Origin: a virus
Direction: 5' to 3' (one strand)
IMG/VR virus record: IMGVR_UViG_3300010885_036249
Coordinates: 1-23,410 of that record
Length of the DNA stretch: 23,410 nucleotides
The first letter of the stretch is position 1. Each line of letters begins with the position of its first letter. Position numbers and translations under genes: made by a program. The notes beneath the pieces are model-generated. The model was not told where the DNA came from and searched no databases. It worked only from the letters and a program-made list of their open reading frames with translations. This document shows, piece after piece, positions 1 through 23,410 of the stretch.

Positions 1-3000
1 GGCTTGCCAATCTTGTATGGTAGATACATATTGGTACCTGTCGTACTTCATGGTAATGTTGAAACTGCGTACCATGTTATAGGCAACATCGTCCACAAGA
101 TCATTGGCCATCACAGCCACCAGTTGACCACCGGTGCCATTGCCGCCCGACAATGAAATCAATGCCGTTGTGGTGTAACCAGAACCAGTGTTGACCACTG
201 TGACTCCAGTGATTCGTCCGGCACTGTTGATATTCACTGTGAGCACAGCAGGCGTGATGCAATCACCAGTAACGGTGGCCACCGGTGCTACTGTATATCC
301 TGATCCTGCATCGGCCACGTTGACTCCCACCACTCCTAGTGTGTAATTTTGGTACCAAAAACTCCAGGGCTGTTGCTGCCATATGAGACTGTCTGCTGCT
401 ACGTCGCTTAGATCGCTGGGAGTACCTGTGCCCACTGCTGTGCTTACTGTGTATGGAGTGAGTATGGGACTCACAAACTGATTGGGTACTACATCAGTAT
501 CGTAAAATGCAGGCACATCAAAGTCAGTGATTGATCCTTGATAATCGTCAAGTCCATCATAGATAAGATTCAGCTCACGTATTTGCACATGGTAAGGTTT
601 GACTTCTTTGATGTAATTCACTACAAAATCTTGATTGTCTTTGCGATAGGTCTGGAATTCTGCCAGTGCTCGTATGGTATGGTTAACATCAATGAGTGAA
701 GTTTTACTCAGCCATTCTGGCGATTCAAACTCGGTGAGTGCAAAATTAAACATCAAGATCAGGGCACGATTGCGCTCAATCAACAAGTCATCTATCAGTA
801 ATTCTTGATTGATACTTTGTATCACGCGGCGTGTTTCTACCACAGGTTCTTGATCAAAATATTGTGCATCAAAAACTTCTATGTCAAATCCAAATCGACC
901 CAGTTGATAATCCCATAACAGTGCAGAGATTTCTATGGTGCCATTTTGCAATGCCACTCTCTCCCATACTGAGGTACTCACACGCAGATAGATTTCCCAG
1001 TATCCTTGTGAATTGGTTTGAACTCTCACGCTGGATCCCACTGGCACTTGATACACACTCAATTTCAATAGATCGCTGTATACCTGCACTGTGGTCACTA
1101 TCTGTTTGCTGGTGTTGTACCCGGGCCGATACCAGTCAACAAAACTCCAATACCTGGTGGTGTCATAACTTTGCACACGCACAAGATCCAAAGTGGCAAA
1201 AGTTTTGGCAGCGGTCACGCTGTATATGGTCCAAAGACCATTTTGTGAAGAATCACTCACAACCAGATACAGATATCCCACAGGCACTGTGGCAAAATTT
1301 TGATAACTGAGTTCTTCAAGATTAGCCACACGCTGATTCCATGCTCCTGAATTTGCTGCTGGTTCAGGTTCTTGACTGTACAACAACGGAAAACTACGGA
1401 TCTCTGCGATAGGAAACTGTGCCAGTACTGAATTCACACGACCAAAATAATTTTTCAATGCCAATAGGCGATTGGCAAACATGCTCTGTCTTGGATTGAA
1501 CTGCACTCCATACTGATTGGCTATGCTGAGGCTTGGATCTGGCACTTTAGCGCCTGCACCGTTCACTCCGCACAGACTGTCTTGGAACTTGAGATACAGA
1601 GTATCTGGCAAGAATCCATCAGCGCGATCCTGAGGAATGAGATTGTACTGCACATGCACATTGTTGTCTGTGGCCTGTTGATTGTATTCAATACTGAGCA
1701 CTGTGTCTTGTGCCGATATATTGCTGTCAGCATTGTAGATGCCTGTGGCACTGGCATTGAGGAATGCCACATATGTTATTCCCGAACTACGAGGATCACT
1801 GATATATCTCGCAACCGCAGTGATAGGCAAGGTTTTTCCAGCCATGGTGTTCACTGTGGTGATACCCTGTGCCCAGAAATAGTAAGTGGTAGCAAATACG
1901 TTGTTGGCGGTGAGACCAGTGACGATGCAGTAACTCAATATATTTCGAGGAGTGCCCGGGCCAGTGTAATTGGCCGGTGGTACTGTGCTGCTGATCCATT
2001 GATACACAGCAACCACTGACCCTGGAAATGTCTGTCCCCAACGTCGTGCTGCATAGGTGATGTCATCTTGATTGGGATCTATGAACCTCACTGTGCTGGT
2101 ATCCCACCATACTTCGCCAACATGCGCTTCGGCCCAGGCACGGCCATTGTTGTTTGCAGGGCCTACATTATAAGCAGCAGGATCCACAGCACTGATATAG
2201 TTGATATTTTCAGCAGCAGCCCCTAATATCTTACCCTGCAATGGGTCAAAGAAATCATAGAATGCAGTCTTGGCACCGGTCTTGATGCTGTAACTGTAAA
2301 CTGAATCAATCAACGCCACGTTGACCACTGGTACTTGTTCATGTATCACTGTCCAAGCAGGAGTCAGCGTGTAGTTGGTAAACAAGGCCACTCGACCGTA
2401 ATTGAGATCGCTGAGTGTGCTGTCTGACAGATCGCTACCTGGACTGCCCACCATCAACACACCATTGGTGTAGTTTACTGCGGTACCAAATTGATCCAGT
2501 GATTGCACACGTTGATCATATATCTGCTGACCAAACACAAACTTGCCAGGATTGCTGATACTGTCGCCTATGCTGGCCAGGTAATCAAAACTGTAGACCA
2601 CACCGGTCTGACTCAATGGGCCATTGAATGTGGTGGCACGGCTGTCAAAATATGTGGTACTTTGATCAAATGTGTTGGGGCGATAGAGATTTCCTCGAGG
2701 CGCCCCCACAGTCAATGTAGTTGCGGCTGTGTCAATATTAAGCGAAGATCCAAATCCAGCATTGATCGCTGGTGCTGGACTGGTGATGGTCTGAGTGTAG
2801 GCAAATGTGTTGAACATCAGACTCTGGAACACTGTTCCTATCAATCCTGGCAGCACAGTGAGTCTGTTGCCAGGCACTGTGGCTGGTAGATTTTTTACAC
2901 TGATGGTTATCAACCCAGCATTTATAGTACCTGGCGCTCCCACGGAAGCCACAACATTGGCCACGCCAGATGCATTGATGTCTTGTGCCAGCACAGCAGG

Positions 3001-6000
3001 CCAACTGCTGATTCTCCAGTAAGTGGTGTCGCCGAGTGCTGTTCCTGCAGGTACTGCGCGAATACTGATGTACAATATTTCTGCATAGTCAACAATGGTA
3101 TCTTTGGAGTAAGAACTTGTACTGCTCCAGAAAGCAGGAGTGCTCACAGCAACTTCTTGATCATTGATCCTGATGGTTTGCCCGGGCACCAGTCGTGCAT
3201 TGGCATTGGTACTGGTGATTGTGCCATACACTCTACTTTGATTCACATTGCGCTGCACAGATCCTGCGAGATCTAAAACAGAACTGTCATTGGGTGATCC
3301 AGTATACAGGCTGCAACTGTATCTGCAGATGTTCACTGCTGTACCAAAATTTGCACCGGCGCTGGGCGAATTTGCTCCAATGATTTGCAATAGATTAAAT
3401 GTGTTGGGCTGTATCTGCAACACATCGCCCACGACCAATGTTGTGCTTACTGTCACAGTGGAACCAGTCACTGTGAATGTTCCATTCAAGTTATCCTGGG
3501 TGTCGGTCAGAAACACATTGTTTAGTACCACAGATGTGGGTGCTACCAACACTCCGCCATCCACTGTGTACGAAGTCTGTGCGGGGTTGGTCACTATGAA
3601 ATTCTGCACCGATCGATCATACACATACACAGATCCTGAATTGATTATGTTGTTATATCCATGATCCGGAGTACCTATCATGACCTGGCGGCCATCAATG
3701 GTACATGACAAACTGTGACCAAATCTTGCGGTGTCAGCCAGTTTTGCAGTGATAGATCTTGATGCAACGCTTTGCCCTGGACTGACTTCATAAGTTCCTG
3801 TGCCGCCGGTGCCAGTGAGGAAGTTAACTATGCGTGTGCCCGGAGTCACGCCGCTACCGGACAAGATCATGCCCTTGGTCAGTGCCGGCGCTCCAACTGG
3901 TACATAACTCACGGTCATAGTGGTGCCAGATATCTCAGCAGTGAAGGTGGTACTGAATTCAATAGTGGTTACATACGTGAAATAACTTTCGGTGGCCACG
4001 TTGATCAACACACCAGCAGATGGCGCTGTGTTAAAGATCAGATCTCTACCATAGGTGCTGTAGTCACTATTGAAAGTGTAGTCGATGTTTGGTCTTTGCA
4101 GAACTCCATTCAAAGTAACTTTAAAACTATAAATGTTCACGGCTGTGTACAAGTATTCGGCCAGAGGAAATATAGTGGTAGATCCATCACCTGAATAATC
4201 TACACCGGTACGTCGAGATATCAACAGAACCAGATCACTCACCGGTGGTGTGGAGAATATTACACTGGTACTGGTTTGTGTGTAGTCCACTCCGTAAGTC
4301 AACAGTTGATTGTTCAACACAACAGAAATCTGCTGCGGTTCCTGATAATCAATGATGATACTATTGCTGTAATTGTAGATGTAAGTGGTTCCATCTGTGA
4401 CATATTTCACGCTCTGTGGCTCAACATCCACATAACCATAGGCAAATACTTTGTTGATGCCCGGTGCACCTATGTACATCCAACGTTCGTCGCGGCTCAT
4501 GGCCACGCTGTATCCAAACTCAGCCGGGTATGCAAGGTCACGAGGATCGGGCACTGTGAGCATGACACTGTTCACAAAGTCCACAGCACCCGGGTGGCGA
4601 TATACCACACTGGCATAACCTCGATTGGTAAAGCTGGCCGGTGCTCCAACCACTTGCCAAGTTTCATTGCCTATACTGACACTTTGACCAAATCCCACGG
4701 TGTCTGCTGCATTGTCTAATTGCAATACGCTATTTTCCACAAATGGAATCAGTGATGTTCTCACAAACGAATATAATCCGCCCACACCTGAGTCATAACC
4801 CGGGCTGCCTATCAACGCATACACATTAGTAAATGCTTGATCCACACTCTGGCCAAACTTGCTGTTGTGTTCAGGAACATCGGCTTTGAGTTCGGAACTG
4901 GCTGTGAAAACCAATTGTTTTTCCAATACTTGCCACAGACCCAGACCGTTGTTATCTACCCAGACTTTGTTGCCAGGTATGAGACTGTTGGCATAAGGCA
5001 AGTTAAGAGTGTCGCTGGCCTGTGCCACTCGTTGTGTCTGCAACACAAATCCAATGCCGGATCCTGTGGCAGTGATCTGATTGGCATTGAAAAAACTAAA
5101 TGCCACCACCAACTGTGTGGCACTGGGTACAACTAGTACCTGATAAGCGCCGTTGACTTCTGTAGAGAAGAATCTCACTATGAACAATGTGCCTACAGTG
5201 ATGCCGTGTGGTTGTGTGAATTCAAACACACTGGTACCATCAAGATTGGTAGTTACTGAACTGAGATAACCTGGCAGTTGGTTGGTTCTGTAGATTCCCC
5301 AGTCGTAGTCATTGATCTTGGCCACCCAGATGGTGGTACCTAATCCGATAGAATTCAGATTGGCATCAAACGATGCAGTGTTGTTGATATCAAACACAGT
5401 GATATCTGCGTCATTGAAATTCACATACCCTGCATTGGGTAATGCCGAATCTGCTACTGGAATAATGCTGGTGGTCAGTATGTTAGGACTGGTGATTTTA
5501 TAACTGCTCTTCCACAGATCGTTTACCAGCACAGTCTGATTGGCCAGGCTGGATTCTCCAGGAATGATCACTTGTATGGTGCTGGGGTTATCTGTGAGCA
5601 ATGCTTCGTTGAGACGTAATTCGTAAAAACTACGATTGGCATTGGCACCATAGATGGCTCGCAGTATGCCCCAATTTTCGTAGATCTGATATTGTGTGGG
5701 TCCACGGCCAAGATCCGCAAAAGAAAATATGTCAGTGGCTTTGGTGGTTCCTTTGGTACCCAGGAACTGTTGATAAAGTTGAACCTGGCTGGTAGAATCT
5801 AGGTCTAGATCCACCATGTACTGTCTAGGCTTCCAACCAATCAACCCGTAGGCAAACAAGTCTTGATTGAGTTCAAGATTGGCTGTGTACACATTGTAAC
5901 TGTTTGCCAGTTCGTCGCTTTTGTTTGGTAGATTAGGCAAAAGTCCTTGCTGGATTTTTGTGTAGTTGGACACTGTCCAGTTGTTGATATCAAATTTTGC

Positions 6001-9000
6001 TGATGGCTGTACAATGTCTTTGGCACTGTAGTAGGTATTTTTCCATTTGACTATCTCGCCTCGTGCATACTTTTTCAGCGGATCCCATGACTGTACATTG
6101 TCTTGATTTAGGATGAAGCCTTGTGCATTGAGCTGGCCATTCCATTCTGTGCTGTACCAGCCAGCAACTCTCACACGGCTTTGTCTGGCGCCTGTTATAG
6201 GATCGTATATGAGGTCATCGAATATACTGACATTGTCCAATACCACCATGTTTTCATAACTGGTGAACTTGATATTGAGAAAATTTATCGTATCTGTGGT
6301 GAGGCTGTTGATAGTAAATGTGTTGTCCAGTCGAGTGATAACAAGATCTCTTGCGTTAAACGGCACCCGGTCAGCATTTAGCACCACATTCTCCACAGTT
6401 TGCACAGCAATGCTGTCTACAATGGCACCTGCACGTTCTACTATCAGTTGGCTGGCTCCTGGGTTCAGGTTAACAATGGCCCCGGTGTTCCATCCTTGGT
6501 TGCTCCAGTACAAGAATTCGCTTGCCATCTGATTCCAGTCCAGCACATATCCATTTTCCACTGTGCTGAATATCAGTCCTTGCTGTTGCAACAACGCGCC
6601 ATAACTCAATAAGAAATCTACTACCAAGGTGGGATTTGTAAACACATATCCATAAGGCACCTGTACCACGTTGTTGCTGTAATTCACCGGCACGCGAACC
6701 GAGGTACCACCAGCCGACACCGTGGCCAAATTACCGTTCACAAGGCTCTGCAATACTTCAAAGTAGGGTTTGTTGGTACTGTAACCATACACGGCCCAAC
6801 CTGTGCCGGTACTTTGTACAATCACACTAGAATAGGTCAATTGTGCAAACGGCACATTTTTGTAAAACAGCAATTTATAACTGTTGTCAGGTATCAACAA
6901 ACTGGCATTGGAACTGTTGGGGCTGGATCTTTCTGTGTAGATAGCCAAGAGATTTTTGGCTGAGAAAGCGGCCAATCTATAGCACAATCTCACATCAAGA
7001 TTTTGCAAATCTACTGTGAGTGTGTCAGTGCTGTTGATACCACTCTGACGATTGAAATCCACGATCCAATTGATATAACTGGCTTTACTTGTACCATTGC
7101 CGTAAATTTGTATACCATTAGCGTCTAATCTATATCGCTGATTGTATAGATACTGTTGGTATTCCGTGTCAAATCGATATAAGTCTCGATCTGCGAACAA
7201 TGAGAAGAATTCTGCAGGACGAGTCAATGCCAACAATCTCATTATGGCAAACGGATACGAACTGGACGTTCTCCAGGCATTTTCAACAGGACCATCATCG
7301 CCGGCTGTCCAGCTCTTGCGGAAATTGTTACTGTTGAAATTTCCTACCATTACCTGCATGGGACTCAACAGTTGGCCTTCGCTGCCCGCTGGTATCACAT
7401 CCAATAGCCCGGGTCGTGCATACTCTGCACGTACATACGGCGCCACTGGATCTCTTACAATTCCTGCTGCTAAATCGCCCCACAGTACCAAGTTGCCCGA
7501 AGTGTAAGGTGCCGGGCCATAATAATTTTCCCACCAGATTGGTTTTTCACTGAAACCCAGCATTTCCCAAGGTCGAGTGGTAGGATATATGGTATCATAG
7601 AAATAGTTGTAAATTCCTCTCCAGGCACCTATATAAAGCGGGTCCCCGGTGAGTTTGTTGGAAGCAGTAGAATAGTTCCAAGTGAATTGATCATTTGGTA
7701 TGTAATCTTGTGCTTTGTAATCCAGCTTGTTCCATCCTACCCAGGTCAAGAAATCTTGATTGAGAATATCCTGTATTTCTGTAGATGAATAATCCGTGGT
7801 TCTGAACTGACCTGGTATCACTTCTGCCGCAGTCAGTGGAATTGCATTGGCATTTAATTTTAAATTGTTGTAGATCCTGGTCTCATATTCCAACAGCAAT
7901 TCGTCTCGGAAGTCATTGAACGCTCGGGTGATACTGCCATCGTGACCGCGTATGACCAATACTGGATTTACATATGATTCGTCCAAGAATATCTCTGGAA
8001 CAAATGCAGGATACAACCCCATCTTGGAAGGAGTATTGGGAACATAACTGCCATAGGTAGCATCGTATTCCTGTATCGTGACCACGTCGCCCACTGCCAA
8101 TGGTACCAAGATAGTGAGAGTTGGAGAATCTGCACTCACAATGTATTCTATACCCCGGGTCAGTAGTCTGGCTTTGCTGTTGGTATAACTGCCGCTGAGG
8201 TACACCAAGACTGTTTGATAATTGGCCGAGGTGTAATTGAAAACCTGAGTGAGATCAAAAACTCTGTCAGTTATAGGTGTGACCGTGGTTTGTAATTGGG
8301 TGTAAACTGTGCCGGTGGGCAACATGTCTGTCCAGTAAAATGGACTTGCACTGCTGCGACCCAGATTGATCTCCACAAACACTGCATTGAGAATTTCAGG
8401 TATGGTGAGATTGGCATAATCGCCGGTCACCGCTTGTGTCAAGAATCTTGACTTGAATTGTTCATATTCTCTGCTGTTGTATTCTAGCGAAGCAAAAATA
8501 TCATATTCGGGCTTGCGGAGGAAATACCCTGCCAAGGTCATGGGCGAGCTTTGCTGTAATATGTTTAGGCCATAAGGAACAATATTGCCCAGATCTCTTG
8601 AGTTATTGGCACCATTGACTACTCCAGTGAGATCCACAAGATTTTGAGCAATGGTGTCATAGTGAGATCTAATGGTTCCCAAAGTAAAGTATGGGCTATT
8701 GCCATTTAATGGATTGTTTTCTAGATTGACAGGAACCTGATAAAAACCCACTGCGCTGACTTGATTGCTCAAGGCCAGCACTTCAACAATATCTCCTGGA
8801 ACAATATGATTATTGGGATTGAACCTTATCACAGTGTTATTTTCTGTGGTGGTAACTGTGTAGGTATTTGGATCTTGAAACAGGCTGCTGTAGTTTTGAC
8901 TGATGCTGGTAGCATACAATTTCACACTTGGCACAGAGCCTGTGGGCACTACTGCTACATCTAGTATCAAGGGAGATGTAGCTGCTAGATCTGCTTCCAG

Positions 9001-11757
9001 CACAGTCTGTGAAACATTAACCAGGTATGTGCCTGTTCCACCAGTTGCTGTGATTAAACCTGTGATTTGTGTGTTGGCTGCTACACCTTTACCGCTGATG
9101 GTCTGACCAATCTGCAATGACGATCCGTTAGCAGGGGCAGTGGTCACTGTGAGCGTGGTATCAGAGATTGAACCTGTGATCACCACACTGGAGTAAGTGA
9201 AACTGAACTGTTGATAAATCTGACTCTTGGTCTTTGCGGCTTGCCATCCAAGTTGTTTTTGGAACACAGTACGATTGGCATATTGACGAGCATGACCTAT
9301 ACTGACCTGGGCAGTTTCACTTACATTGTTCACAACATAGATGAATGTGTCAGAGTAGAGATTGTTGCTGAACAGGATATCACCAATGTTGTCAATGCTA
9401 AGGTATTTTAATTCAAAACCCAACACAGAGTCAATGATACCACTGGTGCCTGTTGCGTAACTGAACAGCGGATTGCCGCCAACTGCAATACCCAGATTAT
9501 TGGGTGTGGTAGAGAAAGTGGAACTGGGGTATACTGCCCTATCACCTAGACTGAATCCATTCACATCATACAGATCAAACATAGGAGTTTGATTTATTGA
9601 AGTTTTTTGCTGCGCCTTGATCCACTGCACGCCATCATATGTGAATGTAACACCCTGTAAAGTTATGCCGCTGAGGCACACCACACACTGGTTGATCAAA
9701 ACATCGGCATCCGATGCAGGTACCAGATCAATCACAGGTTCGGCCATCAATGTGCTGTCAGGCAATGGCCCAGTGGCAGGACTAATAAAATTGACCACAT
9801 ATATCTTATCACGTACCTGTGGATCTGAATCATTGCTAAAGATTACTCTGCTGTTTTGTTGCAGAGCATATCCATCAATGCTGTATCCAATTTGCCCATT
9901 GATGTCATGCAAGGCATTGGTAGCGGAAACATCCACAATGTTAACCGGGTCCTTGGCCTGTGTCCCCATGTTGTAAAGTCTAAGGCCACCTCTAAATTCC
10001 AAGATAGGTCTGCGAGCACGTTGGGCATTATCCAGCACTGCAACGGTGTTGTTGTAGGCCGCACTGGCCTGTATCACGTCAATATGAAACCAACGATTTG
10101 ATCTAGTCCAGGCATTTAGATCAGCACTATCCAAGGCCATGGTGATATAGTCTGGTTTCAATGGCTGATTGAGACTGCCATCAAAGTTGCCCACATCAAA
10201 CGGCAGGCTATCAAATGGTATGGTAGAACTTTCAGTGTACACTTCCGGAGTGATATAATTGCCAACAGGCAACAGTTGTATGGCTGTGCCTACTCCTGCC
10301 ACATAGTATGTTTGATTTTGATAACTTGACGGAATCACATTGCCGCGAAATGTGATTTTGATATTGTTGGTAAACGTCACACCATTGGGAGACAGGTAGG
10401 TTTTCTTGCCCAGAATGTCTGTATCTATATTGATAGTCTGTGATTGAGTTTGATCTATCAGGCGAATCTGTCCAAATATTTCTGGATTGGTACCATCCTG
10501 ATACCAAAGTAGATCTTTGGCCGCAGTCAATAGAGGTATCTGTTCAAAGTACCCCGAGGCGTCACGATACCATTGGGTGCTGTTCCACTGGGCACCAAAC
10601 AGCACAGTGAACTTGCTTAAATTGGCACAAGAGGTCACAGCAGTCAGTATGAGAATGATATCGTTGCCGGATGATTGATATTGTATCCTCCACACGCTGC
10701 GTTGTGTGTCTACATTGGTTATTGGCACTGTTTGGTCAAAAGTCACAGAATCAAAACTGCCCGGATTGCCGTTGTTCACTGTGCCCGATAATGGATCAAA
10801 TGGAGACTGAAACAACCATCCACCATCTTGAGGGTCTGATATGGGGTTGGTAAAAACTATAGTGCGACCATTGAGATCTGTGATACCGTCAATACCTGTG
10901 GGATATTGCTGTAAGAATGTGCTGAGATAAACTTGATTGACTTGATCAAATTGCAATGTTGTGGTCAGCAGATCTACCTGTCCCGGTGTGGGAGTGGTCG
11001 GCACCAGATCGAGATCATAATAGAACTGTTGGGCATTTTGATAAGGCACATTAAAGGTCACAGTTCCGGTAGCTGATCCATTGTTACTAACACCAAACAC
11101 AGTTCTTGAACTGATGTTGGGCGAATATGGCAAGCGACCATTAACTCCTGGATCTGTCTGTATCCAAAATGGGTTGGGACTTTGATTTACTGCAAATTCG
11201 TAGCCGCCGCCTCGCACCAGTGTGAGTATGGGGTTTTTTCCAGCCTGACCCGAGAACTCATAATAGTTGTCGGCTCTGGTCACAGTGAAAGTGTCTGTCA
11301 GCGGCACAGTGGTGGCACTCACGTCCACAGCCAATGGTCCTGCGGGCAACCAGTAATATTGACTGTAGTTTGAAAATTTATCAAAATTTACAAAAGGATC
11401 CCAACTGTAGTATTCGCTGGTGTACAATCGCGACGCATTGTTGGTAAACCCGCCTTGGCGCGCTATAGCGTCCGAAATGCCAGGATACGTGATAGCATCT
11501 GATATGGTGGATGTGTCATTGGGTTTGAGACTTACAACCCCGGGTTCCAACTGATAATTGGCTCGGCTGGCTGTGGGTTCAATCACATAGTAATCATTGG
11601 GGTTAACTCCAGGGCCCACATGCCGACCCACGAACCCTTGAGTTTTTTTCAGCTGAGGCTCTTGTACCAGTTGATCCAATGTGGCAGATAAAAACTGCTG
11701 ATTGGTAGTGGTTTGGAATATGGGTGGTAGAAAGTCTACTGACTTGGTTGTGGCCAT
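1..11757 (-). CDS. Giant baseplate/tail structural protein, at least 3919 residues, C-terminus outside window
   Basis: The frame is open from ATG 11757-11755 to the left edge: I read every codon and found no stop. That gives at least 3919 residues, roughly 430 kDa. The start follows the gp6 TGA with no gap and has GGAG 8 bases upstream. The N-terminus reads [20 protein letters not shown]. Landmarks by residue: RSNRWFH and [10 protein letters not shown] (about 536-599), TGGTGTY module (860-919), [12 protein letters not shown] and [12 protein letters not shown] (about 1396-1419), chitin-binding-like motif (1891-1927), seven FG-GAP repeats (2301-3128) with inserted beta modules, [11 protein letters not shown] (about 3290), [11 protein letters not shown] and [12 protein letters not shown] (about 3714-3753), two GSGYT repeats (about 3818-3862). 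I recall similar phrases in giant structural proteins of marine T4-like phages. No enzyme motif was seen. Its place after gene 6 is that of T4 gene 7, so a wedge protein extended into a peripheral fibre or adhesin is my inference. The exact role is unknown. Confidence 0.95.
100..336 (-). repeat. Tandem GSGYT beta repeats near the left edge
   Basis: Two repeats occur 120 bases (40 residues) apart: [20 protein letters not shown] (GSGYT at 306-292) and [20 protein letters not shown] (GSGYT at 186-172). Each has the form V.V...GSGYT..(P/A)....(T/S)G, known as a repeat in phage structural proteins. The first ends in NSAGRITGV, leading straight into the second. More copies may follow beyond the window. 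Confidence 0.65.
3016..3120 (-). other. Second chitin-binding-like motif, inserted between propeller repeats 5 and 6
   Basis: Residues about 2880-2914 read [20 protein letters not shown], then a [12 protein letters not shown] ending. The order Y(S)K.D.IV.Y...LY......G..L.D..YW matches the small CBM5/12-like module often found in phage fibres. It sits inside the insertion between two FG-GAP repeats, a place that would be exposed at the edge of a propeller. Sugar binding is a guess from the pattern alone. Confidence 0.4.
3745..3945 (-). repeat. TGGTGTY beta module, copy 2 (giant protein)
   Basis: The segment runs [28 protein letters not shown], then [11 protein letters not shown] and QSV (residues about 2605-2671). 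It aligns along its length with the module at 9001-9180. It lies just before FG-GAP repeat 4. Modules ending in [11 protein letters not shown] are familiar from tail fibre proteins; a structural beta domain is inferred. Confidence 0.6.
3982..4326 (-). repeat. Two successive fibre-type modules (VLNNQLL..DYT and TLNGVLQ..DYT)
   Basis: Between FG-GAP repeats 3 and 4 the giant protein has two related beta modules. The first reads [16 protein letters not shown], then [17 protein letters not shown] (about 4326-4226). The second is introduced by [13 protein letters not shown] and reads [16 protein letters not shown], then [15 protein letters not shown] (about 4200-3982). The pattern NGVLQ..DYT..I.F..AP..G..I is common in phage tail fibre and stalk proteins. 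These modules look inserted between propeller blades. Confidence 0.6.
5977..6087 (-). other. Chitin-binding-like W/Y motif in the giant protein
   Basis: Residues about 1891-1927 read [20 protein letters not shown], then YSA, then an aspartate and a NNW about 15 residues later. The pattern W..x..Y..G.IV...N.YY.A....F....W resembles the small CBM5/12 carbohydrate-binding fold, which also occurs in phage tail proteins. Binding to a host surface glycan is only inferred. The module is followed by the conserved stretch [11 protein letters not shown]. Confidence 0.4.
9001..9180 (-). repeat. TGGTGTY beta module, copy 1 (giant protein)
   Basis: The segment runs [28 protein letters not shown], then [11 protein letters not shown] and SQTV (residues about 860-919). 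It shares I.(D/G)TT.TV, (L/I)SG.GV, T.I and TGGTGTY.V with the copy at 3745-3945, about 1700 residues further on. The coding DNA of the two copies is diverged, so the duplication is old or the copies were acquired separately. Confidence 0.6.
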
Positions 11758-14700
11758 TCAGATTACTCCGCTGCCAGGAGCAGTTCTCAAATTAGTTGAT
11801 GTCAACGCAGTGATAACTTCCACACTGCTGACTCCGGCAGCGTTTACAAAAATTTCATTAGGGGCTGAACGTATCTCGTACAGATCACCAAAATACTTCA
11901 ACGGATCCACAGGAACCAGTACCACCGAACTCACTATGCTGCCCATGTTGCGATGTATGTATGCTGCCAGTTCCGAGAAATAAAATGTATCTCCAAAATT
12001 CCACGCTGCAATATCAAAGTACTGATTGAGATTGGCCACTACCAGTGTTTTGATTTCACTGTCACTGGCTGTGGAATTGGGCGCACGTATGACTTTGATA
12101 GTGGCCTGTAGATTCACTGTGGCTTTGGGACCAAACAATGGCTTGAAGGTCACTGAGTTCAACACAATATTGTCAGATATCATCTTGTATTTGTTAAGCC
12201 CTTGATATGCAGTGTCTAGTTCATTGATAGTGGGTTTATCAGGCTCTGTCACTGTGTTGGTGGTATCACGAATCCAGTTGGTATAGGCATTGTAGTAGGC
12301 CAATGTTACAACATAGAGATCAATGATATTGGTGGTACCCGGATCTATGCGATCTGACAGCGGAGCATTGTGTCTGTATTGAAACTGCAAACTGCTGCGG
12401 CCCACTCTGGCCAACCACTCCACACTGACATCTACCAGTGTTCTCACAAGATTGCCTGAGAGAGTCAGTTGATAAAATGCACCTGTCTGTCCTGTCAAAG
12501 GACCTGTGTATATTGGTTGATTGTAGGCATAGAAGATCTGGCCTATCACGTATTGGCTTTTGACCAATTCAATATCATTCAGCGTGGCGTAACTGTCGTT
12601 GACAATGTAAGGCTCCACCAAGAGATATCGTTGCAGATTGTCATAGTCAACAGTTTTCTGGAAAAACACATACTTTGTGTTTGAGTTTACTCCGGGTGCT
12701 ACCAATTCGTCAAAAAAGTCTGGATCATCCGCTATGCCATCGCTGTTGCGATCTTGGTAACTTACCAGCACCTGATAGTCATCCACAAGACCATCTACCT
12801 GCACAGGCTGCCCTGTGATTTTGAGAACCACATCTCCGGGCAAAGGCTGGTTGGAGTCTGGCAAACTATTGGTTCTTAATACGTTGATATAGTCACTGAT
12901 GGTACTGCCAGTTCTAGGATCATAAATGCGATTGCCGGTTTCAAAAAAGAATCTAGTCTGCAATACAGATCCAAAATTGTAGACCAATGCACGACTGGTC
13001 ACTGTGTATTTGCTGCCATCAGTCACAGCTTGTATCATCCACGAAGCATCTTGATTGGTTCCAGATGTGCTGCCTGCATTGCTCAAACTGAAATCAGCAT
13101 TGATAGCAAGATTATTACTGGTTATTAGATACCAGGTGTACGGTGTGCCTGTGATAGAACCAGTGCTGTCATAGCCTAAACCAAAATTCCTATACAACAA
13201 GATCTGATTGATGATGTCTGTGCGCAAACTGGTGGGTATGGTGGTGATCAGCAAGGGAATAACCTGTACTGGAATAGCACCAGTGGGCACAAAAATATTC
13301 AGTGTGACAGGACCTTGGCCGGCTAATCTTCCTGTGGTAAAATTGCCCTGACCTTGATTGGTGCCGTCCACATAAATGCTGCTGGGACTGGCCCAGAGTG
13401 TGAGTCGTTCAGAAGCCAGTGTGGGTACTCCCAACTTCAATCTGTTGTTGGCATCAAAAAAGTATCCAGCAGGTGCTGCAAATTTTACCAAACTACCCAC
13501 CTGTATAAACTTGCTGTTGGTGCTTGAAAAAGAACTGATAGCAGCAGGAAAGCCCAATGAATTCACAAAATACCCTGTGGTTTCTCCGGCCAGGGTGGTG
13601 CTTTGGTGCCAAGTGAGATTGTTTACCAACAGGTCTGGTCTTGGAAAGTTAGCATAGTAGAACTGCGTGAACACCGTGGTAGAAAAGATTGGCTGTATCT
13701 CATTGGTGACCACGCTGGTTATGTCATTGGTTGTGAGCCATGTGAACAAAAATGTTGGCAGTTGATTTTGTTCCCAGATGGCACCATCTGATGCAAAAAT
13801 ATTGGTGCTACTGTATTTTCCTGTGTTGTCCACTAGATCTAGATACCTGCTGGTACCAATACTGGCACGGTTGAGTGCATAACTCTTGATGATTGAGTTG
13901 TAGGCAGTGAATGGAAAGTTGGTATAGTCTTCACCATTGACCATGCGATTCTGGGTGTAGTATCTGGCCGGAGCACGTTGTTTGATCTGGTCCAGGGTTT
14001 CTCTGGCTTGAGCATTGCTTACCGGTGTGGTGATACCACAAGTGAACGTGATGGTTTGAAGTTGCCCTGACCTGCTGATGTAACTGATAGGGATGATCAC
14101 ACTCTGCATCTCTTCAGGATTGATGATGTAAGTGAGTCCATTACTGGCACGAACATAGCTGCGGAAAGTTCCTACCGGAATACTAGAAAATACACCATCA
14201 CCAAAGGTCAGGGTGATCTGATCATTGGCCCTACTGGTGGTAGAATACAATTGACGTTGTTCAGGAGCCAGTTGTTCTGCCGCAGCAGCATAAACAGATT
14301 CTACATACTTCCATTGTGCTGATACATTGCCCACATTGTCCAACTGAAACAACCACCGATCTTCATTGTTTACACCTTCGATGTTGATATCAACTGTGCG
14401 GTTGGGTATGCGTTCTGCAAGATTAAAATCTTGATTCTGAAGTACACCTTGTTTGAAGTAGAAGAAATAGCCTGTGTTGGCACTGGCAAAGCCCAAGGCA
14501 TCATTGCGGAACAGCATGTTGAAACTGCCAGTGGCCAATGGCGGTGGTTCATAGATAAAAGGCGCAGTGGTGGATGTGCCTGCTGAAGTGGAGCTCACTG
14601 CTTCAAACGGCATGTTGATACCGTCAACTGTGGCGGTGTAAGGAAACACTGGCAAAAATCCAGGCACTAGATTTATTGTGTATTCAGCAGTGTCTATGCC

Positions 14701-15240
14701 CAGTATGGTCTGACGATTGCCAGGGCGGCCTACACGTTGTGTGTCCACCAAGGCTGCATTGACGATGGCGGTGAATTGCTCTGCCCAGTTGAAATTGCTA
14801 GGGTCATTCCAATTTACTGTGACTCCACCGAGATCAATGCCATTGATGTCAGTGACATTTTCTGTGGTTTGTACCGAAAATACCTTGAGATATCCGCTGG
14901 CAGCAGTGTTTCGTTTGGGAGTATAACTCACAAGATTGGCCAGGCGCACCACACTGTCTCTGCGTTCAGCAGTGTCTATGTAGTTTTCGCGAGTGTTTAG
15001 ATCATTGCGGAAACTCATGGCCTGACCCATGAACGCAATCACATCCAGCATGGCTATGAATTCTGATGACTCTATATAGTCATTGAACGTTTCGGGATAG
15101 TATTGACGTAGATAGTCTATGAAACTTTTACGCAGAGCCTCAAAGTCGTAACTCTGGAAGTCGGCTTCTCTATAGGTTTCATAGATTCGTTTCCAGTCTT
15201 CTACTCCGAATACAACTGTTTGTCTAGTGGTGCGTGCCAT
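11758..15240 (-). CDS. 6: Baseplate wedge protein gp6
   Basis: This 1160-residue protein is the gp6 (baseplate_J-like) wedge component, which in T4 forms the ring that joins the six wedges around the hub. The hallmark N-terminal block FIAMLDVIAFMGQAMSFRND, then TRENYIDTAERRDSVVRLA and SYTPKRN, lies at residues 61-110. RMVNGEDYTNFP near residue 429 matches the conserved core. The C-terminal block has YFDIAAWNFGDTFYFSELAA (1074-1093) and FGDLYEI. T4 gp6 is about 660 residues, so this one carries roughly 500 extra, mostly between about 550 and 1000. That part includes a calcium-loop-like DRNSDGIADD at 830-839. The ATG has no clear Shine-Dalgarno sequence; the 40-base gap to gp25 is AT-rich. The TGA stop is directly followed by the ATG of the giant gene. 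Confidence 0.95.
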   Translation of the reverse strand: MARTTRQTVVFGVEDWKRIYETYREADFQSYDFEALRKSFIDYLRQYYPETFNDYIESSEFIAMLDVIAFMGQAMSFRNDLNTRENYIDTAERRDSVVRLANLVSYTPKRNTAASGYLKVFSVQTTENVTDINGIDLGGVTVNWNDPSNFNWAEQFTAIVNAALVDTQRVGRPGNRQTILGIDTAEYTINLVPGFLPVFPYTATVDGINMPFEAVSSTSAGTSTTAPFIYEPPPLATGSFNMLFRNDALGFASANTGYFFYFKQGVLQNQDFNLAERIPNRTVDINIEGVNNEDRWLFQLDNVGNVSAQWKYVESVYAAAAEQLAPEQRQLYSTTSRANDQITLTFGDGVFSSIPVGTFRSYVRASNGLTYIINPEEMQSVIIPISYISRSGQLQTITFTCGITTPVSNAQARETLDQIKQRAPARYYTQNRMVNGEDYTNFPFTAYNSIIKSYALNRASIGTSRYLDLVDNTGKYSSTNIFASDGAIWEQNQLPTFLFTWLTTNDITSVVTNEIQPIFSTTVFTQFYYANFPRPDLLVNNLTWHQSTTLAGETTGYFVNSLGFPAAISSFSSTNSKFIQVGSLVKFAAPAGYFFDANNRLKLGVPTLASERLTLWASPSSIYVDGTNQGQGNFTTGRLAGQGPVTLNIFVPTGAIPVQVIPLLITTIPTSLRTDIINQILLYRNFGLGYDSTGSITGTPYTWYLITSNNLAINADFSLSNAGSTSGTNQDASWMIQAVTDGSKYTVTSRALVYNFGSVLQTRFFFETGNRIYDPRTGSTISDYINVLRTNSLPDSNQPLPGDVVLKITGQPVQVDGLVDDYQVLVSYQDRNSDGIADDPDFFDELVAPGVNSNTKYVFFQKTVDYDNLQRYLLVEPYIVNDSYATLNDIELVKSQYVIGQIFYAYNQPIYTGPLTGQTGAFYQLTLSGNLVRTLVDVSVEWLARVGRSSLQFQYRHNAPLSDRIDPGTTNIIDLYVVTLAYYNAYTNWIRDTTNTVTEPDKPTINELDTAYQGLNKYKMISDNIVLNSVTFKPLFGPKATVNLQATIKVIRAPNSTASDSEIKTLVVANLNQYFDIAAWNFGDTFYFSELAAYIHRNMGSIVSSVVLVPVDPLKYFGDLYEIRSAPNEIFVNAAGVSSVEVITALTSTNLRTAPGSGVI
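11766..11769 (-). promoter_or_regulatory. Ribosome binding site of the giant gene
   Basis: GGAG lies 8 bases upstream of the ATG at 11757-11755, inside the last codons of gp6. It supports this ATG as a real internal start even though the frame is continuous with gp6 apart from one TGA. It also argues that normal expression does not depend on stop-codon readthrough. Confidence 0.65.
12724..12753 (-). other. Calcium-loop-like motif in the gp6 insertion
   Basis: Residues 830-839 of gp6 read DRNSDGIADD, followed by PDFFDE. The spacing D.N.DG..DD is that of EF-hand, dockerin and thrombospondin type 3 calcium loops. It lies in the part of gp6 that T4 lacks. Calcium binding is inferred from the pattern only. 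Confidence 0.45.
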
Positions 15241-15280: not shown

Positions 15281-15661
15281 CTAGTTTATTGCAAAAGTTG
15301 CTATGCGTTGTTGTTGGTCAAAAAATACACTCAACAGTTCTGAACTGGTATTAGGAGCAAATTGCAGTTCTAGTTCTATCAACACACCATTTTCGTTGGG
15401 ATAAACATTAGCATCAACGAGATTTATCCTGGGGTCGCCGCCGGCCACTCGCTGCACTTCCTTGATCATTCTGCTGATGGTGGTTTGATCCAGTGTTTCA
15501 AACAGATAACTCCAGATTATGGTTCCATATCCAGGGCGGCCAGGCAGTTGACCTTGTGTGATATTGAAAGCGTTGAGAAGATCTCTTTTGACCAGTTCAT
15601 TGTCCACCAGAGTGAACTTCTTGTATTGATTTTGTGTGTTGAATCCGATAAATGTAGACAT
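15281..15661 (-). CDS. 25: Baseplate wedge protein gp25
   Basis: This 126-residue protein is a full-length member of the gp25 / GPW_gp25 family, the wedge component that sits at the tube-sheath end of the baseplate in T4 and in related contractile systems. The family signature RPGYGTIIWSYLFETLD spans residues 42-58, followed by an amphipathic helix (ISRMIKEVQRVA) and DPRINL (76-81). The C-terminus is the usual beta hairpin. The ATG is 32 bases after the preceding stop. No good Shine-Dalgarno sequence is visible; the leader is AT-rich and holds a late-promoter-like CATAAATA. The stop is TAG. It lies between a lineage-specific protein and gp6, whereas in T4 gene 25 is away from gene 6. Confidence 0.95.
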   Translation of the reverse strand: MSTFIGFNTQNQYKKFTLVDNELVKRDLLNAFNITQGQLPGRPGYGTIIWSYLFETLDQTTISRMIKEVQRVAGGDPRINLVDANVYPNENGVLIELELQFAPNTSSELLSVFFDQQQRIATFAIN

Positions 15662-21607: not shown

Positions 21608-21907
21608 TTAGAATCCTAATGCACTACGCAATGTGGTTATCTTGGGCAGGTAGATCAAGGTACCTATTTTAAAATCCAATGGAGGTTTGGTAAGTGTGTT
21701 GGGATTGCGTTGATAGAACACCCACCACAGAGTAGCATTGTCATAAAGGTCAAATGCCAATAGGTCTGGTCTATATTGGTAGGTTTGTGTGATCACCAGA
21801 GTTTGATCATCGCTTTCTTTGGGGAAAGGACGATCAGTCCGTACATCCAAGAAGAACTGACTATATGGTGTGAGATAATAAGCACTGGTGCTGTCGTAGT
21901 TAGCCAT
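21608..21907 (-). CDS. 53: Baseplate wedge protein gp53
   Basis: This 99-residue protein matches the gp53 wedge family, which in T4 helps lock neighbouring wedges around the hub. The signature RPDLLAFDLYDNATLWWVFY, then QRNPNTLTKPPLDFKIGTLI and YLP, spans residues 46-88. It is about half the length of T4 gp53 (196 residues): it has the conserved core but little else. The ATG overlaps the preceding stop by one base (TAATG), and AAGGA lies 8 bases upstream, inside the end of the preceding gene. The next gene starts 2 bases after its TAA. This packing indicates one message with coupled translation. Confidence 0.93.
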   Translation of the reverse strand: MANYDSTSAYYLTPYSQFFLDVRTDRPFPKESDDQTLVITQTYQYRPDLLAFDLYDNATLWWVFYQRNPNTLTKPPLDFKIGTLIYLPKITTLRSALGF

Positions 21908-23410
21908 TACCAGAATCCTTGTTTTACTAGTTCACCATTGGCAAACTGTTTGAGACTGAACTGCCTGCTGGCCTGATTCCTTGTGACTATGGGATACATG
22001 CTGAGACTTATATCTATCTTGGTAGGCACATAAGTGGGAGAATTTTTACTGAAACTAGGCACCACTGCTGTGCCTTGACTCACAGTTTGCACTGCCCCTT
22101 TGTTTATGCCTTGGCTGTTGAACAGTGTTCTCAATCGATCTTGTATGGATGATGCCACGCCTGTGGGCAGATTGTTTTTTTCTGATGTTCTTCTCACCAC
22201 CAGATCAGTGCCGTTGATGTTGGGACTGCCGGCTCTGATGTAATCAACATCAGCGGGCAAACTGTATTCAAAACCAGTGATCACACAAGGATGATTGTTG
22301 AATTGATATTGTCCTAGACCTGTGAGAAACACCAAGGGCGGTGGTGCACCGCGTTGAGCATCCTGCCCGTAAAACATCTTGGTGGCTGATCGGAAGAAAT
22401 GTATCACTGCCAGCAGATATTGTGCTTCTGTGGTATCTTGTGCAGTGAAAGGGCAACTTATCCTTACTGAGTCTACCGAACTGGCCTTGTAGAAGTAACT
22501 TAGATAATTTGAATGTGTGAGAGATTCACTGGCATAGTTGGCTTTGTAGCTGACATCAATCTTGGGGGTATACGGAAAGATCACTCCATAGGTAGCATTT
22601 AATGGAGCCAGTATACCACGTTCTTCCACACTGGGAGCATTGTATAGATAATTTGAATCTGGTGCCAGGCTGAGGCGCACACGCCAGTCGCCTTGATTGG
22701 CCAGTTTCTGCTGGTTGTCCAGTGTTTTCTGCCGTTGTGTAAGCAATTTGCTTGCTTGTTGCTCCGCTGCCGCTGTGTTGTATCTAGCCAGTCTGGCTGT
22801 TTCGGCAGCACTTTGATTGGGTGTAGCTGCTAGATTTAATCTAGCCAGCCTGGCTGTTTCAGCATCACTTTGAACCACCGCGGCAGCACCGGCTGCTTCT
22901 ACTCGTGGAGCACCACGGCCTGCTTCACCGGGTGCTTGAACAAATGATGATGGAACATCACCGGCCGCTGCGGTTGGCGCAGTACCACGGCCTGCTTCAC
23001 CGGGTGCTTGAACAAATGATGATGGAACATCACCGGCCGCTGCGGTTGGCGCAGTACCACGGCCTGCTTCACCAGGTGCCTGAACAAATGTGGATGACAC
23101 TGCGCCAGGTGTAAGTGTGCCGCGACCTGCTTCGCCGGGTGCTTGAACAAATGTGGGCGAATCTACTGCTGCGGCAGCAGCGGCCCGCTGGGCAGCTTCT
23201 GCACGTTGTGCCGGATCCTGTGAGAATGGGTTAGCGCCTGGACCAGCTGATGTTGCTGCCACTTGAGCAGCCTCTGCTCGTTGTGCTGGATCTTGAAATG
23301 TGCTGACTCCAGCAGTAGGAGTGCTTGTTTGTGCAGGTTGTTGAGCTGGTTCGCCTGTACCAGATTGTGCATATGATACCGTGGTCAATCCGGCAGCATT
23401 GGTGGCTCCA
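21907..23410 (-). CDS. Tail-tube-cap-like baseplate protein (gp48/gp54-like) with repeat linker, 5' end outside window
   Basis: The frame is open from the stop at 21907 to the right edge. A TTG at 23388-23386 could start it, but upstream codons (GATNAAG) look coding, so the true start is probably beyond the window. Numbering from the TTG, residues 1-230 are a low-complexity linker: two DPAQRAEAAQ phrases, four FVQAPGEAGRG repeats (80-159) and two AAETARLAR-type phrases (SDAETARLAR, SAAETARLAR). The folded domain (about 233-493) has DWRVRLSLAPDSNYLY, YGVIFPYTPKIDVSYKANY, AVIHFFRSATKMFYG, HPCVITGFEYSLPADVDYIR and PTKIDISLSMYPIV. This order resembles the tail tube cap/initiator family (T4 gp48 and gp54), which link hub and tube. 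That name is an inference. The stop overlaps the gp53 start by one base. Confidence 0.85.
   Translation of the reverse strand, partial: GATNAAGLTTVSYAQSGTGEPAQQPAQTSTPTAGVSTFQDPAQRAEAAQVAATSAGPGANPFSQDPAQRAEAAQRAAAAAAVDSPTFVQAPGEAGRGTLTPGAVSSTFVQAPGEAGRGTAPTAAAGDVPSSFVQAPGEAGRGTAPTAAAGDVPSSFVQAPGEAGRGAPRVEAAGAAAVVQSDAETARLARLNLAATPNQSAAETARLARYNTAAAEQQASKLLTQRQKTLDNQQKLANQGDWRVRLSLAPDSNYLYNAPSVEERGILAPLNATYGVIFPYTPKIDVSYKANYASESLTHSNYLSYFYKASSVDSVRISCPFTAQDTTEAQYLLAVIHFFRSATKMFYGQDAQRGAPPPLVFLTGLGQYQFNNHPCVITGFEYSLPADVDYIRAGSPNINGTDLVVRRTSEKNNLPTGVASSIQDRLRTLFNSQGINKGAVQTVSQGTAVVPSFSKNSPTYVPTKIDISLSMYPIVTRNQASRQFSLKQFANGELVKQGFW
22917..23148 (-). repeat. Tandem repeats encoding FVQAPGEAGRG (72, 72 and 63 base spacing)
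   Basis: Four copies of the FVQAPGEAGRG coding unit lie in a row. The units at 22917-22988 and 22989-23060 are identical over all 72 bases. The unit starting at 23061 is diverged, and the fourth (from 23124) is 63 bases away from it. The identical pair points to a recent duplication by slippage or unequal recombination. All units keep the reading frame (24, 24 and 21 residues), so copy-number change would only lengthen or shorten the linker. Confidence 0.9.

Follow-up and report, generated by a model that had tools for sequence, protein, structure and literature searches.

Why should a giant virion protein of a bacterial virus carry, in the middle of its chain, what appears to be the propeller of an integrin alpha head? 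The question is raised by the 23,410-nucleotide stretch analyzed here (IMG/VR virus record IMGVR_UViG_3300010885_036249, positions 1 to 23,410; hereafter the window), on the minus strand of which a giant protein of the baseplate region contains seven FG-GAP repeats. The account that we consider rather probable is that this protein is a virion scaffold, encoded next to a gp6-like gene, that a seven-bladed FG-GAP_2 propeller was inserted into one of its hairpins and later decorated, and that the propeller serves in docking or adhesion. New here is the location of the propeller between two strands that would make a plain hairpin in propeller-free relatives.

Seven FG-GAP_2 units and their predicted fold

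A preliminary description of the window reported seven FG...G(A/S/T)P units of the FG-GAP_2 type at positions 2374 to 4857 (minus strand, as for all features below), corresponding to residues 2301 to 3128 of the giant protein, and that observation is confirmed. The FG starts of the units fall at residues 2301, 2356, 2414, 2679, 2804, 3002, and 3090. The pattern FG.[SAT][VLIAM]x5-12G[ASTC]P has exactly seven matches in the whole giant protein, all within this region; among composition shuffles (n = 2,000), a single match appeared in 17 and two or more in none. A hidden Markov model (HMM) of the repeat, built from the family with the window itself among the training rows, scored all seven units at 26 to 39 bits each. 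The Pfam model FG-GAP_2 (PF14312), which is independent of the family alignment made here, gave 41.6 bits for the whole giant protein against a gathering cutoff of 23 and 50.8 bits for the propeller region alone, and it matched 29 of 30 relatives; single window blades, taken one by one, scored under the cutoff. PF01839, the second family named for searching, matched 1 of 30 proteins in the window's clade and rose above its cutoff in L280 and L195, two of the undecorated relatives, in which the propeller spans about 410 to 480 amino acids (aa) and the blades lie about 60 aa apart. A viral-contig scan yielded 78 relatives, and all seven units are conserved in the 32 diverged representatives (<70% identical).

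Integrin-type propellers were judged by seven blades, FG-GAP and Cage motifs, DxDxDG A-B loops, and a closed ring, following Chouhan et al. (2011; PMC3192720). With relaxed spacing, the Cage motif occurs in six of the seven window blades, blade 6 being broken by a B-C insert, and in fewer blades of undecorated L280. DxDxDG is absent from the window propeller region (residues 2301 to 3128), in agreement with the preliminary description. In 255 propeller-positive proteins, 63 such motifs were observed against 28 expected by composition, and only 8 of the 63 sit at the A-B loop position. A calcium-loop reading was dropped on these two grounds.

An AlphaFold2 model of the window region, built from 65 natural sequences, has a predicted local distance difference test score (pLDDT) of 86.6 and a predicted template modeling score (pTM) of 0.87, with seven consecutive blade-like strand sets. 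The model of L280, which has exactly seven FG units, scored 83.0 and 0.82, respectively. Integrin alpha heads make up most of the Foldseek matches listed for the window model in the PDB (best E value, 1.8e-10; target template modeling [TM] score, up to 0.60), and all 50 of the 50 matches listed for the L280 model are integrin structures (best E value, 1.6e-15; target TM score, up to 0.64). Across both models, the best integrin-head matches have target TM scores of 0.55 to 0.64, at sequence identities of about 8 to 17% within the fold alignments. The models strongly support an integrin-like seven-bladed propeller as the predicted fold, as had been proposed. Where the preliminary description would have yielded to a fold without a closed propeller or to fewer than five FG-GAP repeats, seven repeats were found, and a closed ring was read from the fold matches and the order of the strands.

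The insertion slot and the growth of the blades

The propeller is bracketed by two scaffold strands. LWQVLE (4918 to 4935; residues 2275 to 2280; DSSP strand 40 to 45 of the model) precedes it and corresponds to AWTVYK in L251 and L272; AWTVIHE (2335 to 2355; residues 3135 to 3141; DSSP strand 900 to 906) follows it and is the second hairpin strand in relatives with an empty slot. In propeller-free L251, the two strands adjoin with a short turn, AWTVYKRAQGRWTAFRQQ, and L254 and L272 are similar; we read these adjoining strands as a plain beta-hairpin. In propeller carriers, the propeller comes between these two strands, which read LWQVLEK and AWTVIHE in the window. Past the slot, conserved scaffold (1348 to 2322; residues ~3146 to 3470) is 31, 31, 26, and 28% identical to that of PA5oct, Atu_ph07, 121Q, and SCTP-2, respectively. 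Scaffold profiles match these four phages on both sides of the slot, and none of the four has blades there. Different material fills the slot in other propeller-free relatives; in Atu_ph07, for instance, it consists of GSGY-type repeats. Cultured records that match the window's scaffold are without blades where examined; Xanthomonas XaC1, considered as a partial propeller carrier, was dropped because it has no blades.

Three scaffold-anchored scans and the first viral-contig scan supplied 102 representative rows for a tree, of which 6, each carrying a weak blade or two, were left uncounted. In a tree of the scaffold columns, 63 propeller rows and 33 propeller-free rows are parted by one change, with a Shimodaira-Hasegawa-like approximate likelihood ratio test (SH-aLRT) value of 100; the same split returned an SH-aLRT of 99 after slot-adjacent columns were removed and a mixture model was applied. 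Because the rows separate with one change, a single gain (or loss) is enough to explain them. A gain is favored, since both undecorated and empty forms are known and the cultured scaffold homologs examined are all without blades. The propeller clade is a family of bacterial viruses, large and uncultured, whose sampled members all retain the propeller.

When the 165 proteins in which all seven blades were detected are compared, distances between blade starts fall into clusters: near 55, 130, and 190 aa from blade 1 to 2; near 60, 120, 190, and 250 to 290 aa from blade 3 to 4; near 50, 120 to 130, and 180 to 210 aa from blade 4 to 5; and near 50, 150, and 190 to 230 aa from blade 5 to 6. The spacings from 2 to 3 and from 6 to 7 are nearly constant. 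Blades 1, 3, 4, and 5 were enlarged in the window's lineage by steps of about 65 to 70 aa. The preliminary description placed large beta modules between the blades. The modules exist, but for the most part they lie within blades 3, 4, and 5, where they separate strand C from strand D; a position between blades was dropped for the C-D loops after comparison by eye with undecorated relatives and with DSSP strand order, not coordinates.

The blades and their additions can be followed along the chain (bit scores are those of the repeat HMM). Blade 1 (4723 to 4857; residues 2301 to 2345; 26.9 bits) is conserved, and blade 2 (4558 to 4692; residues 2356 to 2400; 26.3 bits) is the best Pfam FG-GAP_2 stretch. 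The conserved strands A to C of blade 3 (4429 to 4518; residues 2414 to 2443; 39.3 bits) lead into a C-D loop insert (3958 to 4395; residues ~2455 to 2600) of two LNG..L..G.DYT-type modules, within which Phage_T7_tail matches weakly at residues 2516 to 2587. Between this insert and blade 4 lies a lineage-variable module (3742 to 3924; residues ~2612 to 2672) related to phrog_38233 tail fiber, and the next blade starts 265 aa after blade 3, against about 60 aa in undecorated relatives. Blade 4 has conserved strands A to C (3619 to 3723; residues 2679 to 2713; 31.1 bits) and a C-D loop insert (3400 to 3606; residues ~2718 to 2786; spacing, ~125 aa), past which its D strand, FNLLQII, picks up again at residue 2787. 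In blade 5, strands A to C (3244 to 3348; residues 2804 to 2838; 33.7 bits) hold a CxxxC pair, and the C-D loop insert (2806 to 3225; residues ~2845 to 2984; spacing, ~198 aa) is a W...YW module resembling tail-fiber or carbohydrate-binding modules, whose profile matches the F2-pyocin tail fiber weakly (E value, 0.0017). Blade 6 (2521 to 2754; residues 3002 to 3079; 29.6 bits) has the B-C insert FD..TTxFD..T, an older feature that is also present in undecorated L195 and L280, and conserved blade 7 (2377 to 2490; residues 3090 to 3127; 33.2 bits) closes the series. By these resemblances to phrog_38233, Phage_T7_tail, and the F2-pyocin fiber, the modules look like tail-fiber pieces, as the preliminary description had suggested; its sugar-binding-like inserts survive as possible carbohydrate-binding modules.

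Two further observations concern these additions. The giant protein has two copies of a TGGTGTY-type module (8983 to 9195 and 3742 to 3924), filled in only about 26 to 30% of relatives, as if mobile. A CxxxCS pair in blade 5 (C2811 and C2815; 3313 to 3327) is found in 172 of 183 decorated relatives and in 0 of 42 undecorated ones; its cysteines, invariant in 65 rows, are a candidate disulfide or metal site.

Gene setting and the proposed role

The giant protein (1 to 11757) has 3,919 aa here in a frame that runs off the window edge, and its relatives have about 4,700 to 5,000 aa. It matches phrog_10938 (virion structural protein; 1e-272), and its homolog in PA5oct, gp355, is annotated as detected by electrospray ionization tandem mass spectrometry, which makes it a virion protein. 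The adjoining gene (11758 to 15240) encodes a gp6-like baseplate wedge protein (phrog_10646; 5e-267), and a gp25-like wedge protein (15281 to 15661; PF04965, 29.9 bits against a cutoff of 27.2) lies beyond; the order gp25-gp6-giant is common to the window, PA5oct, Atu_ph07, and 121Q. These neighbors and the virion homolog uphold the assignment to a baseplate locus made in the preliminary description. Gene position suggests that the giant protein may be the equivalent of T4 gp7. A search of PDB sequences with the giant protein as a single sequence gave no match, and a scan of genome contigs for host clues found no relatives. A weak CBM5/12-like chitin-binding module lies at 5965 to 6087 (residues ~1891 to 1931), and the family scaffold profile matches the chitin-binding modules of chitinase A1 and deacetylase DA1. 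Elsewhere in the window, a 72-bp tandem repeat of 2.5 copies (22912 to 23090) lies inside the frame at 21907 to 23388.

From sequence, models, and comparison, the giant protein is a virion scaffold that has a complete integrin-alpha-type seven-bladed FG-GAP_2 propeller set into one of its beta-hairpins, and small beta modules of the tail-fiber type were then added stepwise in the loops of particular blades in the window's lineage. Because both termini enter via neighboring strands, the scaffold could have taken up the propeller undisturbed. C-D loops lie on one propeller face in the integrin topology, so modules held mostly in these loops would share that face. The propeller would stand out from every wedge of the baseplate as a rigid disc, and the added modules might offer a docking or adhesion surface for tail fibers or host envelope glycans at attachment. 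In 13 near relatives, propeller identity is 0.62 to 0.81, mostly 0.62 to 0.72, and scaffold identity is mostly 0.75 to 0.90; by this comparison, the propeller evolves faster than the scaffold but is not hypervariable, as a host-range determinant would be expected to be. That combination favors a platform for docking and adhesion, with no firm choice between fiber docking and host contact.

Several points weigh against the proposal. A gain or a loss depends on the root, and the tree is unrooted. Among the 13 near relatives, the propeller has almost no indels and is not hypervariable, which suits a structural or fiber-docking role no less than a receptor role. Placement at the baseplate periphery is an inference from gene order. 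A profile of 27 scaffolds compared with PDB sequences matched neither T4 gp7 nor any solved baseplate protein, only the chitin-binding modules. The Foldseek superpositions are loose (root mean square deviation, ~7 to 15 Å), and ring closure is taken from fold matches and strand order rather than from coordinates.

Three other explanations may be set against docking and adhesion. The propeller could be, in line with the preliminary description, a receptor- or glycan-binding head whose added modules or central pocket contact the host surface. This is possible, though doubtful: phiKZ gp131C (PDB 4GBF), a seven-bladed propeller at the periphery of a jumbo-phage baseplate, has been suggested to bind a receptor, the cavity of the five-bladed propeller of phi11 Gp45 could take N-acetylglucosamine (PMC4901313), and one insert weakly resembles the F2-pyocin tail fiber, but near relatives show neither hypervariability nor module swapping, DxDxDG sites are absent, and a binding role rests on sequence and models. 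With gp131C as precedent, a receptor-contact role is plausible by analogy. We regard it as unlikely that the propeller is purely structural, stiffening or spacing the wedges or holding neighboring baseplate proteins without ever contacting the host. Moderate, indel-free divergence among near relatives and retention by every sampled clade member would fit such a part, as would the structural propeller of the SU10 nozzle, which docks short tail fibers and the tail needle (PMC9509320); however, its divergence outpaces that of the remaining giant protein, and tail-fiber-like modules have repeatedly been added to it. That the seven motifs form a repetitive beta array never closed into a propeller is very improbable, for although the superpositions are loose and closure is indirect, two independent confident models have four-stranded blade patterns, nearly all top PDB matches are integrin alpha heads, and undecorated relatives fit seven units, no more and no fewer, into about 440 aa, which is the length of an integrin head.

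To the docking and adhesion account we add, tentatively, a more specific version: a single ancestral insertion of an integrin-type propeller into the hairpin of a wedge protein may have founded this clade of big phages, and the propeller, as a ring of expandable sockets, would then have taken on tail-fiber modules at certain blades in increments of about 65 to 70 aa, becoming an adhesion organ that the wedge carries apart from the tail fibers. Apart from this version, the findings tie an integrin-like fold to a single change of architecture that can be traced in the evolution of phage baseplates. Because empty-hairpin, undecorated, and stepwise decorated forms all survive in nature, one can follow and test how a possible adhesion device was gained and elaborated, and part of a giant virion protein otherwise annotated only as structural gains a functional hypothesis.

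Comparison with known systems

A search with the propeller alone turned up S-MbCM6-type cyanophages, Phosso, Atu_ph07 gp320, and one uncultured phage, a protein of which also contains FG-GAP_2, and nothing else. The "hemagglutinin protein" gp320 of Atu_ph07 (393 aa; L337, 5019 to 6200) is similar in its FG-GAP_2 match (65.4 bits) and as a viral fold match (target TM score, 0.69), but it is a stand-alone gene beside tail-sheath genes, and the phage's own giant protein has no propeller. The 7,022-aa "gp8 baseplate wedge protein" of Synechococcus phage S-MbCM6 (L339, 141 to 21209) likewise lies directly after gp6 and matches FG-GAP_2 at 149 bits, whereas the scaffold profiles match only its shared GSGY-type repeat, and a separate gp7-labeled gene is present. 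Since those profiles do not match beyond the repeat, its propeller may be a separate recruitment. In the same protein, FG-GAP_2 adjoins a Laminin_G_3 domain, and protein 108 of Sinorhizobium phage Phosso (L340) has many FG-GAP-like units, perhaps several propellers per chain.

Integrin-like propellers have been described as satellites of larger prokaryotic clusters (PMC8023676, PMC3192720); the text of neither paper mentions phages, and we found no literature linking FG-GAP to a baseplate or a jumbo phage. The nozzle propellers of SU10 and T7 are comparable as seven-bladed phage tail propellers that have domains between their blades and a dock for tail fibers (PMC9509320) but belong to the nozzle of short-tailed phages. 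phiKZ gp131C likewise brings a seven-bladed propeller to the baseplate of a large phage; it differs in being a C-terminal domain from another phage lineage and is absent among the 50 Foldseek matches listed. The closest likeness is to the N-terminal propeller of integrin alpha, which has seven FG...G(A/S/T)P blades, the Cage spacing seen in six of the seven window blades, and a bare length of about 440 aa, and which supplies the best PDB fold matches of both models. The integrin I domain sits between blades, whereas in the window blades 3, 4, and 5 hold the inserts in their C-D loops. The window propeller also differs in being without DxDxDG calcium loops and in being embedded midchain in a phage scaffold protein.

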